A model generated the notes under the pieces. That model was not told where the DNA came from and ran no database searches. It worked only from the letters and a program-made list of their open reading frames with translations. A stretch of DNA of 64,000 nt from Spartinivicinus marinus (GTDB lineage: Bacteria > Pseudomonadota > Gammaproteobacteria > Pseudomonadales > Zooshikellaceae). The position numbers and the translations under genes are program-made. The DNA lies in assembly GCF_026309355.1 (NCBI RefSeq), contig NZ_JAPJZK010000001.1, positions 1,488,001 to 1,552,000 on the forward strand, given 5' to 3'. The stretch's first letter is position 1. Each line of letters opens with the position of its first letter. Positions 1 through 60,592 of the stretch are shown one piece after another.

Positions 1-42
1 GAGTAATAGGGTATTCTGTAGCGTAAGAATATCCTATTACTC
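1..42. repeat. Hairpin copy of structured repeat family A (short form)
   Basis: The outer 10 bases (GAGTAATAGG / CCTATTACTC) are perfectly complementary, and the pairing extends to 17-base arms with one mismatch around a short loop. The same outer sequence occurs at 5780-5891, 29436-29528 and 60366-60476, where longer internal hairpins are present. This copy lies just past the 3' end of iolE, so it may also act as an end-of-operon hairpin, but there is no T-tract on the minus-strand side. Confidence 0.8.
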
Positions 43-83
43 TATATTCAAAAGTTATTTAGAATATAATTATTTAGTACCAG

Positions 84-5686: not shown

Positions 5687-6017
5687 TACAGTAAATTCCC
5701 TTCATCAGATTTTTTTGTACACGCAGAAAACTTGCCCTTTCCCTAGTCCTCTTCTTGAAAGCCATTACAAAAGTCAGCGGATATGGAGTAATAGGGTATT
5801 CTGTAGCCAAGGCATGGATGCCTTTTTAGCTCTTGATGGGCCAGGGATGGCACTTCAAGAGCGGCGGAAAAATACCCTGTTATTCCATATCAAATACTGG
5901 AATTTTTTTCAGCGACCTTTTGCAAGATTCTTCTGAGGGAGAGGGAGCTACTTGCTATCTTCCCTAGAGAAAGAAGATTTAATAAATAAACCCTTTTATC
6001 TACATGTCTTACATTAT
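5687..6017. other. Intergenic spacer in the iol locus, occupied by a repeat
   Basis: About 330 bp between iolB and the Gfo/Idh/MocA gene. The 112-bp family A repeat at 5780-5891 fills the middle. Open frames here on the plus strand have no ribosome-binding site or family similarity and are created by the repeat. The rest is AT-rich and shows nothing I can name. Confidence 0.6.
5780..5891. repeat. Structured palindromic repeat, family A (full form)
   Basis: The outer arms (GATATGGAGTAATAGGGTATT on the left) pair over 21 bases with two G-T type mismatches. Inside are two further hairpins: AAGGCAT(5809-5815)/ATGCCTT(5818-5824), and GCTCTTGA(5829-5836)/TCAAGAGC(5855-5862) enclosing GCCA/TGGC. 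The predicted shape is a cruciform or three-way junction. The copy at 60366-60476 keeps the architecture but with different bases in the inner stems. Confidence 0.85.
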
Positions 6018-11530: not shown

Positions 11531-11713
11531 ATAGCCAAAACGAAGGATGTTTAGGCGAGGCGAGGAAGCCCCAGGAGCTTATTGAAATAAGTGACTGGGG
11601 TGAAGACAGTTTATTGCTCCTGCATAAACTGCATTCACACCATCCTTGGTGCTTAGCGAAGATAACAAAGCACTTGTGCCCTAGGGGTATAAAGATCATT
11701 CGTGAAGGGTATA
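11531..11713 (+). repeat. Dispersed repeat family B, long form, upstream of iolG
   Basis: This 183-bp element begins ATAGCCAAAACGAAGG and ends TTCGTGAAGGGTATA, an imperfect terminal inverted repeat. It shares long blocks with 56569-56793 on the opposite strand (for example GGGGTGAAGACAGTTTATTG and GCATTCACACCATCC) and with a shorter form at 19940-20065. It separates the regulator gene from iolG and ends 18 bp before the iolG start. Open frames within it are by-products of the repeat. Confidence 0.85.
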
Positions 11714-19939: not shown

Positions 19940-20065
19940 TATACCCAATGCGTAGGACTTTTAGGTGAGGCCATCAAGTGACGAAGCCTCATGAGCCTAT
20001 ATTAATAGGTGATTGGGGTGAGGAACGATGATAACAAAACCTAAAAATGATTCGCGACGGGTATA
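19940..20065 (+). repeat. Dispersed repeat family B, short form
   Basis: Starts TATACCCAATGCGTAGG and ends TTCGCGACGGGTATA, matching the ends of the copies at 11531 and 56569. The central block of about 60-100 bases present in those copies is missing, so this is an internally deleted form (126 bp). Confidence 0.8.
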
Positions 20066-23186: not shown

Positions 23187-26100
23187 TTACATACTCGATC
23201 CATTTACACTGACTATTTTATTATTGTCAATATCTTGTGTAATAGTAAAAGGTTCCTTCATAAAAGAATCATTAGCGTAACCAATAGATAAAACCCGTAC
23301 TTCACCTGGATTAAGATTGACTGTTCGAAAATGAATTGCAATTCCATGTGTTGTTGGAGGACCAGAATCGAAATCTACTCCCATACTTCTTAAAGAACCT
23401 TTAAATTCATTAGCAACCTCAGCAACACCATTTAACCTTTCTGTTAAGTCAAATACTGTCATATCCTCGCCAATTCCAGCTAGAGGCCTATAAGCTGCTC
23501 TAGCCAAGTAGGCAATATCTAAACCAAACGATTGTAACCCACCCATAGCACCATCTTTTAGTGGATTTTTCCCACCAGAAATAGTTGAGGATACAACACC
23601 TTTATTAAAAGAAGCTGCATATTTCGTTATATCCCACTTTACAGCTAACTTTGTATTCTCCCCTAATGAAAAGTTATTCTGATAACTCAAGTCCAGATTA
23701 TATTTAGCTGCATATTGATAAGTAGCATTGTATGCAGCTTGTCCTGCTACATAGCTGGCATAAGACCTAGCAAAAGCCTTATAGGCGTCACGGTAGTCAC
23801 CACCCATAATTGACGTTAGATAAGCATTATATGCCGCAGAGCACCTACCAGCGCAGCCTTTGTAATCTAAAGCACCAGCTACAACTTGCCCTATAAATCT
23901 TAGTGACTTGCTGCGAACAAACTCAGCATCTACTTTTCTTGAAAGCCAAAGTCTGCTTCTAAGACGCATGGTTTCATTATGCACTTTACGCTGAGTCCAC
24001 TTGAAGGTAGCTCTTTCTAAGGCAAATTCAGGCCTTAAAAAATGACTTTTTCTATGTAACTTACGAATTTTCTTTCTTAGTTTTTTAAAACTAAAATACC
24101 CAGTTGGATCTGTTCGGTTTAGTGGGTTGTTATATACGTAAGTATATCGGTTTAATGACTGTGAATTGTAAGGGTTTTGAATAAATGGATCAGCACTTAA
24201 AAAGCGACCAAGATTTTGATCGTAAACCCGACCATTCATGTGGATTAGACCGACTGCGTCCAGGTTTTCATGCCCTGTAAAACCGCGAGTCGTTACTTTG
24301 CTTGGTAGAGCAGTATAGTTAGTGCTAGGTTTCCAGTTAGTAAAACGCTTTTTGCCCCAAGGATCATAACTAAAGCGTTCAACTACATTCGCTTTTTCAT
24401 CAGTAATTGCAACAATAGAACCTAGGTGATCCCTATGTAGATAATTAGTTTTATCTTTCCCTTCCGCTTGGGTAACAATTGCAAAACTACCAATATAATG
24501 CTTGTGTTCTACCTTGCTGTTATTAGCTACAACCTTTTCGTAAATGCCTCCCATATAGTAAGTGGTTGTATTACCATTACTGGTATTATCAATCCGGCGG
24601 ATACGAGAACGGTTGGTATCATAGTCAATAGCGGTAGATAAATTGCCCTTAGTAATTAGGCTTGGTTTATCAAATGCCGTATAAGTAATTGTACGGCCAT
24701 TACCCGACACCATATTACCATTTAAATCATAGCAATAATGGGCGTTTTGTACGCCTGCGGTTTGGGTAACTGCATGAGGCCCAGCATTAACACCACTATC
24801 ACAGCTGCCACCGTAGCTATAGTTACCCACATCCGATTTAAAAGTAATATTACCTAACTCATCATATGAGACATGCTGGGTATTTTTATAGCCATCGTTT
24901 AAAACAGCAGTACTTTCAGTCAATCTATTAAGTTGGTCATAACTATAGCTTTCCGTTATCCCTTGGCGAACATCTTCACGGCTGAGTAAATTTCCTAACT
25001 TATCGTAGCTAAAGTGAAGTAGTTCAATTTGATTTACTGACCCCAAGTTTGCAGCAATATCAGTAACCCGACCTGCTTGTGGATCGACATAACGTAAAGT
25101 TTCCACTCCATTACCTAATACCGACTCTATAACACTCCCTTGCGGATTTACCGTTTTAGCTTGCCAGTATTTTTTAGGATTTTTTTCCTTACCATCAGTT
25201 ATAGCAACTAAATAGCCTCTTTCGTTATACACATTTTTAGTGGTTAAGCCTGTAGGATAAGTAGTAACCAAAGGACGGCTGTAATTATCGTACTCAGTTG
25301 CAATCGTAAAAGATTCACCAAACGCGGTTTGTATTGTACTTACCAGCCGTTGATATTGATCATAGCTAAACTGTTTTGAAAAATTAGGGCTAGTTACTTG
25401 ATCTAATACACCTTTATAAGACTTGTCAAAAACCCACTGACTTATTTCCTGTTGGTCTTTATCTAGTTGTGCATTATCAATGCGTTTAACCTTTCTCCCA
25501 AGTAGATCATATTCGATTTTAGTAATTTGACCTTTAGCGTTTTGCTGTTGAGTTAATCGGTCCAGTGCATCGTAACCATATGTCCAGCGGCCTTTATCAG
25601 GGTCATTCATTGCAACCTTACGACCACGAGCATCGTATTCAATGGTTGTTATATTTCCTACCGGATCAGTAGTTTTTGCTAATCCGCCAAAAGCATCATA
25701 TTGATATTGAATGGTATTGCCTAAGGCATCAACTACATTCACTGCTTGCCCAAGCGCATTTTTATTAATAGTGCTTACTTGGTCTTTTTCATTAATAGCT
25801 GTTTGACTTAAACCATCAAACTCTGTCTTAGTAATAGAACCATCAGGTGCAGTTGTTTGTGTAACCCTTAATAATTCATCGTATTGATACCTTGTCCAAT
25901 AGACTTGAGTATCTGTTGAAAAATAAGGCTGTGATTGGCGCTTAACAACACCTAATGAGCTATATTCAGTGTCGGTTAACACTGATTGCCCAGTTAACGC
26001 TTGGGTTTTTGTTCGTACTTGCCTACTTAAACTATCAAAATAAACGGTTACTGGTCTATTTCCACTAGCAGTAGTGGTTACCCAATATTTTGCTCTCGCT

Positions 26101-29100
26101 GGGCAAGCATCATTACACCAGCCACGACTGATTACAGTTTCAGTACCATCAGCACGTTTTTCTTTTAAAGCACGACCTAAACTATCATATGTAAACTCAG
26201 TAACTTTACCATTAGCATCAGTCGTGCGTGTGGCTACACCAAAGAACGGATCAATAACTTGATGAGTAGTAAACCCTAGCGCATTAACTGACGATTTTAA
26301 AAAGCGCCCATTATCAGAAAAATTAAAGCGAGTCGTAGTAGTTTTAATCCCTGGCCCACTTTGAGTAATAGCAATTCGATTACCATAACCATCATACTCA
26401 TACTGAGTTTTCAGGAATAAATCACCATTATCAGGCTCTACTGTTTCTTGTAATACAATACCTGTATTCTGATCAAAACTAAGAGCACGAGTACGGGTTA
26501 AGCTAGCAGAAAAATCACTACTGCGGGTGTCTTCAATACGCGTAGCTAAGCCGAATAACCACTGACCTTCATTGTTATCGTAAGTTGTATTTACTGTTTG
26601 TTGGTAGCTACCATATTTATCAACAGTAGTAGTGTGTTTTTCTGTTGCATTACCAAACTCGTCATAAGTCAACTGTTGAGTGATGGTTGACAGTAATTTA
26701 CCTTGTAATGATTTTTGGATAGTTTTACTGTTAGCTAACAAGGCTTGATAACGAGGAATATCTCCATCACTTAGTTTGTTAACTTGCCAATCCTGCGTAA
26801 CATCCTTTAATACCACGCCATTTTTTGACAAAGTTTGGCTATGGGAGAGTAAACCAATTTTTCGATTAGCTACATCCTGAGCATAATGATTAATGGTTTT
26901 AATCCCAGTATCTACTTGGATGCTAGTCATCTTGGCAAAGCCTAATGACCCCAAGCCTTTTTGGTGAAACTTTAAACCTTCATATTCATAGGTTGTAGTA
27001 GTGAAGCCACCGATACCATTAGCTTTTTCCAACTTAGACACTACATAAGTTGTAGGCTGAATATCTCTAACTGGATATTGGCTACCAGAGCTTTTGGTGA
27101 AAATGGATTTATTGGTTAATGGCTTATACGACAGTTTGGCAACATAGCCGAGGCCGTTGGTGAATAGCTTTATATTACTAGAATTCCAGGTAGATAAAAA
27201 TGGAGTTAATTTTCCATCCCCATCTCTAGTGACAATATCCGATTTACCGTCTCCGTTAAAATCCATTACAAAGTAACGATGCCCAGTATTCCAATCACCT
27301 CTATCACTTTGGCCTGTTCTAATAGCTCCCGCTTCAATTAGTGTTTGTCCATTTGACAGCCAGCTCGACAATGTGCCTTCACCATCTCGCATCAATAAGT
27401 CGTGCTTTCCATCACCATTAATATCCATTACAAAATAGCGATGCCCCGAATTCCAACCATGGCGATCTCCCCTTTTGCCCGTAGGTGTAGCACCGGCTTG
27501 TTCGAAAGTTTTACCGTTGGAAAGCCAGCTGGATAGTGTTCCTTCACCATCCCGCATTAGCATGTCTTGTTGACCATCACCGTTAATATCCATTACAAAA
27601 TAGCGATGCCCTGAATTCCAACCATGACGATCTCCTCTTTTGCCCGTAGGTGTAGCACCGGCTTGTTCGAAGGTTTTGCCATTGGAAAGCCAGCTGGATA
27701 ATGTCCCTTCACCATCTCTCATTAGCATGTCTTGTCGGCCATCACCGTTGATATCCATTACAAAGTAGCGATGCCCCGAATTCCAACCATGGCGATCTCC
27801 CCTTTTGCCTGTTGGCGTATATCCTGCCTGTTCAAAGGTTTTACCATTGGAAAGCCAGCTGGATAAAGTTCCTTCACCATCCCGCATTAGCAAGTCTTGT
27901 CGACCATCACCGTTGATATCCATTACAAAATAGCGATGTCCCGAATTCCAACCATGGCGATCCCCCCTTTTGCCTGTTGGCGTGTCCCCAGCTTGTTCGA
28001 AGGTTTTGCCATTGGAAAGCCAGCTGGATAATGTCCCTTCACCATCTCGCATTAACATGTCTTGTCGGCCATCACCGTTAATATCCATTACAAAATAGCG
28101 ATGCCCCGAATTCCAACCATAGCGATCTCCCCTTTTGCCTGTTGGCGTGTCCCCAGCCTGCTCGAAGGTTTTGCCATTGGAAAGCCAGCTGGATAATGTC
28201 CCTTCACCATCTCGCATTAACATGTCTTGTCGGCCATCACCATTGATATCCATTACAAAATAGCGATATCCAGAGTTCCATCCATGAATATCACCTCTAC
28301 GACCAGTTGAAGTACTAGATAGCTTTATAAAAGACGCTGGGTTATCTTCAATACTTACTTGAGTTTTAGGTAAACACTCATTTGAGCTACATTTTTCTAT
28401 CGAATCGAATAAGCTATTTTTCAATTCTTTTGTAGCACGATAGTTAATAACGTAATGGCTAGTTTTATTAGGTACAAAAATATTTATTTTTGTTAGTAGT
28501 TTTTTAGTTTGATACATAGAACCAGAAACATAGCCAGAAATCACATCAAGTCTATCTTCAAGCTCAAACTTAACTTCAGTACCAGCATAAGAAACAGAAG
28601 CAGGATAATGTTCTCCAGTATCACTATTTTCTAAATATTGGTAATTAATGGCATTACCAAACCGATCTTCTACTTTATTTATTGCCCAGTTTAATGCATC
28701 TGCTTTGCCTTGGGCCTCTACTAAAGAGTCTTCAGTATTTCCAAATTCAGCTATGCGACCATCTTTGTACCAGACTTTAAAATAGGCTGGACCATTACCT
28801 GCTGAGCCATAAGATACAATTTTACGGTAGCTGGCATTTTCAGTGCGGTACTCAGTACCACTTGCCCCATAATTACCATTAACGGCTACTAATCGATCAC
28901 CACTTAGACAAAACTTGTCGTTATCGTCAAAATCTACCCCATCAATAAATCCATCTTGAATCAAAGTAGTTGGGCAGCGGGTAATGGAGGATAAGCCTGA
29001 TAAGCTCCAGCCTATACCTAACAATCCATTTCGCTGTTGGCTGTTATAAACCAACGCCAAATCAGGTTGCATTTCATTCACACCTGGAGGCAATTCAATG

Positions 29101-29243
29101 GGAATACGATAACTTGCCGCACCATTTTCGGTGACTGTAACATCGCCAGGCAAGGTGCCTACCATAGTGTTGTTGATGCTAGCTCCTGCCAAGGAGGATG
29201 CAGCTGCCCCAGCTACAACTAGCCATTGTGTAAATTTCTTCAT
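23187..29243 (-). CDS. Secreted SpvB/FG-GAP/RHS-repeat protein, probable polymorphic toxin
   Basis: A 2018-aa protein with a Sec signal (ending near AGAS). Order of parts: an SpvB-like N-terminal domain (about 25-300, GTLPGDVTVTENGAASYRIPI, PDLALVYNSQQ); seven FG-GAP/VCBS-like repeats of 55 residues (about 315-690), each with a DINGDGRQD calcium-type loop; RHS/YD repeats (about 880-1600); and the RHS core (YLHRDHLGSIVAITD ... GRFLSADPF ... NPLNRTDPTGY, about 1610-1714). A 304-residue C-terminal region follows. The architecture resembles the B/C parts of insecticidal Tc complexes and secreted RHS toxins, where the region after the core is the toxin. Here that region has a basic stretch and no fold I recognise. 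No TcA or TcC partner and no immunity gene is visible. Confidence 0.9.
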   Translation of the reverse strand: MKKFTQWLVVAGAAASSLAGASINNTMVGTLPGDVTVTENGAASYRIPIELPPGVNEMQPDLALVYNSQQRNGLLGIGWSLSGLSSITRCPTTLIQDGFIDGVDFDDNDKFCLSGDRLVAVNGNYGASGTEYRTENASYRKIVSYGSAGNGPAYFKVWYKDGRIAEFGNTEDSLVEAQGKADALNWAINKVEDRFGNAINYQYLENSDTGEHYPASVSYAGTEVKFELEDRLDVISGYVSGSMYQTKKLLTKINIFVPNKTSHYVINYRATKELKNSLFDSIEKCSSNECLPKTQVSIEDNPASFIKLSSTSTGRRGDIHGWNSGYRYFVMDINGDGRQDMLMRDGEGTLSSWLSNGKTFEQAGDTPTGKRGDRYGWNSGHRYFVMDINGDGRQDMLMRDGEGTLSSWLSNGKTFEQAGDTPTGKRGDRHGWNSGHRYFVMDINGDGRQDLLMRDGEGTLSSWLSNGKTFEQAGYTPTGKRGDRHGWNSGHRYFVMDINGDGRQDMLMRDGEGTLSSWLSNGKTFEQAGATPTGKRGDRHGWNSGHRYFVMDINGDGQQDMLMRDGEGTLSSWLSNGKTFEQAGATPTGKRGDRHGWNSGHRYFVMDINGDGKHDLLMRDGEGTLSSWLSNGQTLIEAGAIRTGQSDRGDWNTGHRYFVMDFNGDGKSDIVTRDGDGKLTPFLSTWNSSNIKLFTNGLGYVAKLSYKPLTNKSIFTKSSGSQYPVRDIQPTTYVVSKLEKANGIGGFTTTTYEYEGLKFHQKGLGSLGFAKMTSIQVDTGIKTINHYAQDVANRKIGLLSHSQTLSKNGVVLKDVTQDWQVNKLSDGDIPRYQALLANSKTIQKSLQGKLLSTITQQLTYDEFGNATEKHTTTVDKYGSYQQTVNTTYDNNEGQWLFGLATRIEDTRSSDFSASLTRTRALSFDQNTGIVLQETVEPDNGDLFLKTQYEYDGYGNRIAITQSGPGIKTTTTRFNFSDNGRFLKSSVNALGFTTHQVIDPFFGVATRTTDANGKVTEFTYDSLGRALKEKRADGTETVISRGWCNDACPARAKYWVTTTASGNRPVTVYFDSLSRQVRTKTQALTGQSVLTDTEYSSLGVVKRQSQPYFSTDTQVYWTRYQYDELLRVTQTTAPDGSITKTEFDGLSQTAINEKDQVSTINKNALGQAVNVVDALGNTIQYQYDAFGGLAKTTDPVGNITTIEYDARGRKVAMNDPDKGRWTYGYDALDRLTQQQNAKGQITKIEYDLLGRKVKRIDNAQLDKDQQEISQWVFDKSYKGVLDQVTSPNFSKQFSYDQYQRLVSTIQTAFGESFTIATEYDNYSRPLVTTYPTGLTTKNVYNERGYLVAITDGKEKNPKKYWQAKTVNPQGSVIESVLGNGVETLRYVDPQAGRVTDIAANLGSVNQIELLHFSYDKLGNLLSREDVRQGITESYSYDQLNRLTESTAVLNDGYKNTQHVSYDELGNITFKSDVGNYSYGGSCDSGVNAGPHAVTQTAGVQNAHYCYDLNGNMVSGNGRTITYTAFDKPSLITKGNLSTAIDYDTNRSRIRRIDNTSNGNTTTYYMGGIYEKVVANNSKVEHKHYIGSFAIVTQAEGKDKTNYLHRDHLGSIVAITDEKANVVERFSYDPWGKKRFTNWKPSTNYTALPSKVTTRGFTGHENLDAVGLIHMNGRVYDQNLGRFLSADPFIQNPYNSQSLNRYTYVYNNPLNRTDPTGYFSFKKLRKKIRKLHRKSHFLRPEFALERATFKWTQRKVHNETMRLRSRLWLSRKVDAEFVRSKSLRFIGQVVAGALDYKGCAGRCSAAYNAYLTSIMGGDYRDAYKAFARSYASYVAGQAAYNATYQYAAKYNLDLSYQNNFSLGENTKLAVKWDITKYAASFNKGVVSSTISGGKNPLKDGAMGGLQSFGLDIAYLARAAYRPLAGIGEDMTVFDLTERLNGVAEVANEFKGSLRSMGVDFDSGPPTTHGIAIHFRTVNLNPGEVRVLSIGYANDSFMKEPFTITQDIDNNKIVSVNGSSM
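27225..28290 (-). repeat. Tandem 165-bp repeats inside the RHS gene
   Basis: The segment ATATCCATTACAAA recurs at 27421, 27586, 27751, 27916, 28081 and 28246, exactly 165 bp apart, with neighbouring units differing by only a few bases. A seventh, diverged unit lies near 27256. Each encodes one 55-residue FG-GAP-like unit. The near-identity points to recent duplication or ongoing homogenisation. Confidence 0.92.
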
Positions 29244-29641
29244 CTACTACCTTACATTTAATGTTGTACTTCTAGTGTTTTTTGTTGAACGTCAGTTTAA
29301 AAAATGGCCGATATTATAGTGCCAATAGGAGCACATGCAACAGGGGAAGTATTTCACTTGTATTCCCCCTTAGCCCTACTCTCTCAAGGGAGAGTGTATG
29401 AATAGTGTTGTCTGTCATATGAAAGAGACACAAAAGATATGGGGTAACGGGATATTCTAGAGCTAAAAAACAGGGGTAATCAGCTACTACAAGACTAACG
29501 GCAGAAAAAGCCACTGTTATTCCATATTGGACACTTGACTTATTTTTAGCATCCTTTCACAACAGCCTTCACCAGGTTTGCAAACTATTAATCACTAAAA
29601 CTGGTCTACTGTAGACTAAAACTCAACCAAATAATAAAAAT
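29244..29641. other. Spacer between RHS and GGDEF-EAL genes, mostly repeat
   Basis: A 398-bp region largely made of a composite repeat (29335-29565) that includes a family A core. It contains the RHS promoter region next to 29243, but I could not assign boxes. Confidence 0.6.
29335..29565. repeat. Composite MITE-like repeat containing family A core
   Basis: The left end (CAACAGGGGAAGTATTTCA) resembles the left end of the element at 51710 (GAAAGTATTTCA). A CTCTCTCAAGGGAGAG palindrome follows. The family A core (GATATGGGGTAAC ... GTTATTCCATAT) spans 29436-29528, and the right end is CTTTCACAACAG. The core is more diverged than the copies at 5780 and 60366. Confidence 0.7.
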
Positions 29642-56568: not shown

Positions 56569-56793
56569 TATACCCTTCTCGAATGATTTTTAGGGTTTGT
56601 TGTCGCCGCTAAGCACCATGGATGGTGTGAATGCAGTTTATGCATGGTGGTATGGATACCACTAATTAGAGCAATGCAGGAGCAATTGCCGAGGAGCAAT
56701 AAACTGTCTTCACCCCAATCATTTATAAACACATAAACTCATGGGGCTTCATCGCTTGACAGCCGCCCCTAAAAACCCTTCGCTTTGGGTATA
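56569..56793 (-). repeat. Dispersed repeat family B, longest copy
   Basis: A 225-bp element. Read on the minus strand it begins TATACCCAAAGCGAAGG and ends GAGAAGGGTATA. It shares GGGGTGAAGACAGTTTATTG and GCATTCACACCATCC with the copy at 11531 but has an extra block (GCAATTGCTCCTGCATTGC region). Its terminal AAGGG lies at ribosome-binding-site distance from the start of the transporter gene. Confidence 0.85.
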
Positions 56794-60276: not shown

Positions 60277-60592
60277 CCCCCTTATCTCTCACACTCAATC
60301 ACTAGCACTGTCGTAAAATCTCGTTTTAGCTCTCTCGGTAGGAGGGCTATCACTAAAGCCTGTGTATATGGAGTAATAGGAAATTCTGTAGCTGCGACAG
60401 GGATGTCGCTTTAGCTCTTGATATGCCAGAGAAGGCATTTCAAGAGCGGTGGAAGAATAGCCTATTATTCCATATCGAACACCAATCTTATTTTTTACAC
60501 TATTTCGCGACAGCCTCACAACCACACCTTACTTGCCCCCTTAACCGCCTTAGCTATAGTTAAGTAAGCTGATCTTGGATATAGGTATCGCT
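60277..60592. other. Spacer between ettA and a PilZ gene, mostly repeat
   Basis: About 315 bp, of which 60308-60513 is a composite repeat with a structured family A core. The remainder, 60514-60592, holds the promoter region of the PilZ gene and no other recognisable feature. Confidence 0.6.
60308..60513. repeat. Composite MITE-like repeat with family A core and CTGTCG ends
   Basis: The ends CTGTCGTAAAAT and ATTTCGCGACAG are imperfect inverse complements and resemble the ends of the element at 51710. The core (60366-60476) has outer arms ATATGGAGTAATAGG/CCTATTATTCCATAT. Inner hairpins are GCGACA(60394-60399)/TGTCGC(60404-60409) and GCTCTTGA(60414-60421)/TCAAGAGC(60440-60447) enclosing ATGCC/GGCAT. 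Compared with 5780-5891, paired bases change together. Confidence 0.85.

Follow-up and report, generated by a model that had tools for sequence, protein, structure and literature searches.

The window, by which we mean the whole stretch of 64,000 nucleotides of Spartinivicinus marinus DNA that was analysed, carries copies of a structured element of the TwoAYGGAY family (RF01731), which occupies at least 63 distinct places in this genome and is also found in other genera. We regard the copies as dispersed structured RNA elements, probably CsrA/Rsm-binding, that may titrate or tether CsrA/Rsm. A known RNA family of open function takes here the form of a dispersed, RNA-structured repeat with lineage-specific expansions and a probable affinity for CsrA. 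The copies are tied together by their conserved GGA loops and by their Rfam family, neither of them named in an earlier note on this DNA, whose overall interpretation is partly supported.

The only intact element among the four copies of the window, copy A (5781..5890, plus strand), has both GGA loops and is recognised by RF01731 (48.1 bits for a cut-off of 43, matched span in Rfam 5765-5905), by the own-genome model R1 (125.6 bits) and by its fold (-57.3 kcal/mol, z -8.1). According to the consensus structure, its outer stem P1 is formed by a 5' arm at 5781..5802 and a 3' arm at 5868..5890. Hairpin P2 (5809..5824), with the stem AAGGCA/TGCCTT, contains the GGA of predicted CsrA site 1 at 5816-5818, and hairpin P3 (5829..5862), with the loop AGGGAT, contains that of predicted CsrA site 2, of the type CANGGANG, at 5845-5847; all these parts lie on the plus strand, and the spacing of the two predicted sites is 29 nt. 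Copy B (60366..60475, plus strand) scores 119.2 bits with R1 and 33.5 bits, under the cut-off, with RF01731. It retains the GGA of the P2 loop at 60401-60403 and has lost that of P3, where the loop reads AGAGAA; its fold has a z of -10.0. Two copies are decayed. Copy C (29437..29527, plus strand) consists of outer arms only, its inner hairpins being scrambled and the GGA loop absent, and is unreported by R1 at E 0.001. Copy D (1..47, plus strand; R1 31.3 bits), cut by the window edge, has its outer arms joined without inner hairpins. The opposite strands of copies A and B give z values of -7.8 and -10.2 and are about 8 kcal/mol weaker; since they fold nearly as well, folding energy alone does not discriminate between strands. 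The GC content of the window is 0.407.

All four copies listed in the earlier note are found at their positions, and the search for more that it recommended yields the at least 63 places mentioned above (E ≤3.6e-13), detected with R1, a model built from alignment A1 of 25 own-genome copies. RF01731 alone gives 24 matches in the own genome, of which 11 exceed the cut-off; 14 control genomes yield no match. The raw R1 tallies (86 in the own genome; 90, 40, 7 and 11 in G001 to G004) are inexact, as they rest on 150 scored candidates per genome (150 of 2585 in the own genome); since one palindrome may be hit on either strand, they are not taken as copy numbers. Within this genome, different copies have arms in common. 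With respect to mechanically called open reading frames, which are not an annotation, those of the 63 copies that lie in tandem gene pairs run against the genes in 28 cases and with them in 15 (p 0.066); 17 lie between convergent and 3 between divergent genes. Collections of plasmids and phages contain no match to the window copy or to one copy from genome G190, and exact window-type patterns are absent from the genome-contig and viral-contig sets, which may exclude the genome itself and those closest to it. Two long copies, L109 and L110, are extended inside hairpin 1 by an insert of about 60 bp that, by eye, appears to pair with itself.

Covariation in the element is strong; given the many further copies as well, neither of the two outcomes that the note named as refuting it has occurred. 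Alignment A1 defines 40 pairs and 994 cells, of which 96.7% are paired, and when partners are slid relative to each other pairing falls to 39-55%. Two-sided changes occur at 22 of the 40 pairs, a number reached by none of 500 shuffles, although the cells depend on one another, since a subtype switch in about half of the copies accounts for much of the hairpin 1 variation. Further hairpin 1 stems (GAGACA, GCAACA, GTGACA and others) contribute separate changes. The stem swap between AAGGCA/TGCCTT and GCGACA/TGTCGC that the note had singled out is real: at three hairpin 1 pairs, 12, 11 and 12 of the 25 copies differ on both sides from the most frequent pair, and unpaired cells number 0, 0 and 1. 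The second difference it described, GCCA/TGGC versus ATGCC/GGCAT, is likewise present in copies A and B. Together with the folds of these two copies, the shuffles bear out its view that this is not a random palindrome.

The strand that folds is indicated by the unequal use of non-canonical pairs. A G-U pair on one strand is an A-C mismatch on the other, so that an excess of the former means that it is the fold of the GGA strand that is kept; an excess of wobble pairs over A-C mismatches indicates a single folding strand, in the simplest case RNA. In the 25 own copies, 86 cells are G-U and 7 are A-C, or 24 versus 7 when pair types are counted (p 0.003). The asymmetry is weaker in a wider set of 50 type-1 own copies, with 176 versus 28 cells and 28 versus 20 pair types. 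In copies from other genera, 63 G-U and 3 A-C cells are found (p 1.3e-15); this count covers 82 of 84 copies, two being too short, with a median arm length of 28 bp, 2202 Watson-Crick pairs and 44 other cells. These results support the note's proposal of a foldback RNA whose shape is under selection. The asymmetry is as strong where the upstream gene does not read into the element (19 G-U and no A-C in other genera).

Conservation resides in the loops. Across 61 aligned copies, from which L109 and L110 are omitted, the loop 2 positions C, A, N, G, G, A, N and G deviate in 5, 2, 49, 3, 0, 2, 33 and 3% of cases. We take this loop to be the CsrA/RsmE consensus CANGGANG, variation being confined to its N positions. 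For the GGA of loop 1 in the same copies the deviation is 2-7%, compared with 25-48% for the adjoining positions. The difference is due to a second subtype (11 of 61 copies), in which hairpin 1 has been exchanged but GGA is retained in 10 of the 11. As judged from the letters, a CsrA/RsmA-type loop consensus thus appears to be conserved, fully in loop 2 and for GGA in loop 1, with the stems free to change. When loop windows are taken as fixed positions, not as folded hairpins, 53 of the 63 copies have GGA in both, 8 in one and 2 in neither, and TCC in place of GGA, as expected of a flipped loop, is found in none. A strict count that demands uninterrupted stems gives 34 copies with at least two GGA hairpins, 24 with one and 5 with none. 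A related Rsm consensus, RUACARGGAUGU, has been published (PMC7937890).

The element also occurs widely in the order. The hairpin GGCCANGGANGGCC is present in 163 of 293 genomes and reaches at least 20 copies in 17 of them, belonging to six families, with a maximum of 164. The same stem with the loop AGG is found in 117 of the 293 genomes with a maximum of 6, and the GGCCANGGANGGCC pattern read backwards has a maximum of 9; some genomes, such as G046 (10 versus 9), are without enrichment. Copies were inspected in six high-copy genomes from four families besides that of the window. In the sister genus, all 12 copies read have GGA in both loops, and their arms, which are different in each copy, pair by eye. 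A twin-core pattern matches named genomes in at least 116 stretches; 80 such loci, chiefly of Marinobacter but also of Haliea, Parahaliea, Kineobactrum, Microbulbifer, Idiomarina and Alcanivorax, supplied the 84 copies from other genera, most of which come from different genomes, a set from which exact duplicates were removed and in which a few near-identical copies (for example L210 and L213) remain. In these 84 copies the median pairing score of an arm is 24 with its own partner and 6 with the partner of another copy, and left arms of different copies resemble each other to the same degree of 6. Within one genome the arms mostly differ (G253, G168), although two copies in G243 have similar ones. 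MAFFT misaligned 4 of 23 cores across lineages, and therefore no generic all-lineage covariance model is given.

Gene context was classified for 71 copies from other genera, of which 26 were set aside as lying inside mechanical open reading frames; the remaining 45 comprise 14 along, 13 convergent, 12 opposite and 6 divergent. A second rule, applied to 82 copies, gives 24, 23, 19 and 6 in that order, with 10 unclassed on one side. In G243, 11 head-to-head pairs of elements are separated by 130-172 bp (L323-L332, L342), and many of them consist of two different arm types that face each other like a composite unit.

The mechanism we envisage starts with transcription of the GGA strand. The RNA would then fold into an outer stem enclosing a junction, from which two hairpins emerge that both display a CsrA/RsmA-type GGA loop. 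CsrA dimers are able to span two sites on one compact RNA, and a single dimer could in the same manner bridge both sites of a copy. Many intergenic copies might then jointly titrate or tether CsrA/Rsm, titration being the simplest effect of so many predicted CsrA sites; alternatively, the elements may locally mark the transcripts that carry them. Several observations count against this reading. The asymmetry is independent of the direction of the upstream gene and is weaker on 50 copies, the window holds decayed copies, and neither a GacA box or terminator was found in the own genome nor a conserved promoter in other genera. Nor does the presence of csrA discriminate, as it is found in all 25 genomes tested, including 8 with zero exact hairpins. 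The own genome encodes a canonical CsrA of 66 amino acids and a CsrA-like frame of 158. Elsewhere in the same genome (G000:C1, near 3740766 and 640480), loci L027 and L028 specify near-identical proteins of about 104 amino acids with two CsrA-like matches per chain, the second just under the Pfam cut-off.

The literature offers some support for CsrA as the ligand. A 2010 list of candidate RNAs includes TwoAYGGAY, probably real and probably not cis-regulatory, from the human gut, gamma-Proteobacteria and Clostridiales (PMC2864571). A motif analysis predicted that the family binds CsrA and read it as a CsrA-binding sRNA (PMC4333381). The literature search found no demonstration of its function. 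Among the matches listed (titles and the beginnings of abstracts, with few subscription journals), none describes dispersed CsrA-binding repeats; the sole relevant match is a study of the targets of three Rsm proteins in P. putida, which include a 'long palindromic region', located downstream of PP_3547 in strain KT2440, as well as stretches between genes at ISPpu8 (PMC7937890). This Rsm-bound region is possibly the same element, in which case it would support the CsrA reading.

The copies could instead be mobile palindromes whose hairpins serve a transposase as single-stranded DNA, in the manner of REP/RAYT, IS200/IS605 or MITE elements; GGA would then be part of a recognition signal and CsrA irrelevant. 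The copies are indeed dispersed and intergenic, often form head-to-head pairs in other lineages, and single-stranded DNA would tolerate G-T wobble as well. Their occupancy also differs between the own genome, G000, and the related G001: of eight sites compared, 4 are occupied in both, 3 are without the element in G001 and one holds there another subtype, reversed. None of the eight is a clean empty site, and at nine more sites a single alignment spans both flanks and the element; overall, 37 of the 63 copies have a qualifying flank match, in 40 stretches, some of them through repeats only. Matches to Y1_Tnp, whether RAYT-like or not, number 7 in the window's genome (6 of them alike in score and length), 4 and 7 in the Spartinivicinus genomes G001 and G002, and 2 in G168, but there are none in G243 despite its 62 exact hairpins. 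Target duplication is not above the cross-copy control, the likeness of a copy's own flanks averaging 3.92 versus 3.85 across copies for the 63 own elements and 3.41 versus 3.27 for 83 from other genera. Such transposases read features of the stem, whereas here conservation lies in the loops across families with unrelated stems. We consider this origin unlikely. The label 'REP/MITE-like' used in the earlier note thus holds for a dispersed palindrome but not for target duplication, and transposases are found in the window's genome and not in the high-copy G243.

Perfect arms could also be kept by template-switch correction during replication, in which case the palindromes would be neutral and the compensatory changes mutational and unselected. 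The arms from other genera invite this idea, since they are near-perfect yet unrelated between copies (the medians of 24 and 6 above), a state that slow compensation, point by point, would hardly attain by itself. Template switching does not explain, however, why G-U should be spared but not A-C (63 versus 3), nor would it preserve the GGA loops, which are not palindromic, in a single orientation, with none of 63 flipped, so that we judge it improbable. Still less probable, in our estimation, is an ordinary autonomous Csr/Rsm sRNA duplicated many times. Rsm-type RNAs have GGA hairpins, and an intact element has two; the motif paper, too, treats the family as a CsrA-binding sRNA (PMC4333381). 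Against this, a GacA box (up to 2 mismatches) is absent within 300 nt upstream of all 63 own copies, as it is from the downstream control; a terminator-like T-run follows the stem in 8 of 63, compared with 13 of 63 on the control side; and the 60 nt upstream of 83 copies from other genera hold no conserved promoter, only the last base being conserved and TANNNT occurring in 8%, compared with 11% and 14% in controls. The small RNA suggested in the earlier note, if understood as an autonomous gene, is therefore not supported. A GacA-box search of the own genome gives 15 one-mismatch sites versus 5 for the reversed control, and Rfam detects no Rsm/Csr RNA at the 10 stretches examined of these 15; a canonical sponge RNA was thus not located in this genome.

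The preferred reading, that of dispersed structured RNA elements that probably bind CsrA/Rsm, sets these copies apart from known systems in several respects. Copy A scores above the TwoAYGGAY cut-off and shares the two GGA-loop hairpins and the outer stem, whereas the published descriptions, in the portions consulted, include neither tens of copies nor copy-specific arms (PMC2864571, PMC4333381). CsrB and RsmX/Y/Z, which are sponge RNAs, carry GGA in hairpin loops and sites of the CANGGANG type. The element resembles them in both features and differs in having two sites per copy and many dispersed copies, with none of the gene signals sought above. REP/REPIN, BIME, ERIC and MITE sequences are dispersed intergenic palindromes, like the element, which in some lineages is also paired head-to-head; unlike them, it has a strand-asymmetric structure, no target duplication and, in other genera, copy-specific arms, and in G243 no Y1 transposase.

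A broader proposal, which we put forward only tentatively and hold to be somewhat doubtful, is that RNA structure maintains dispersed repeats that provide each genome with twin CsrA sites in the tens or perhaps even hundreds, with copy-specific self-complementary arms in several genera, and that these together make up a CsrA/Rsm sponge or tether distributed over the genome, whose expansion took place independently in several lineages within the order. The copies point to the GGA loops as the letters that matter and to one strand as the active one, and they indicate that the family is capable of existing as a dispersed repeat. If CsrA binding holds true, titration models that count a few Rsm/Csr sRNAs would be incomplete in several groups of Gammaproteobacteria. 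The copy-specific self-complementary arms raise a new question about the evolution of repeats.

Other repeats and insertions were also observed. The G001 ortholog of the copy at 60366-60475 contains, in its 3' arm, an insert of about 178 bp with inverted ends of its own (L125, 10200-10378). Within the window, repeats with the motif AAGTGACTGGGGTGA, which is presumably ERIC, lie at 11587-11669, 56596-56726 and 20002-20024, and ERIC-like sequence is also part of an insert beside an element in G001 (L140). A large RHS/TcdB-like frame extends over 23187-29243 of the window, and its 165-bp repeats match FG-GAP.
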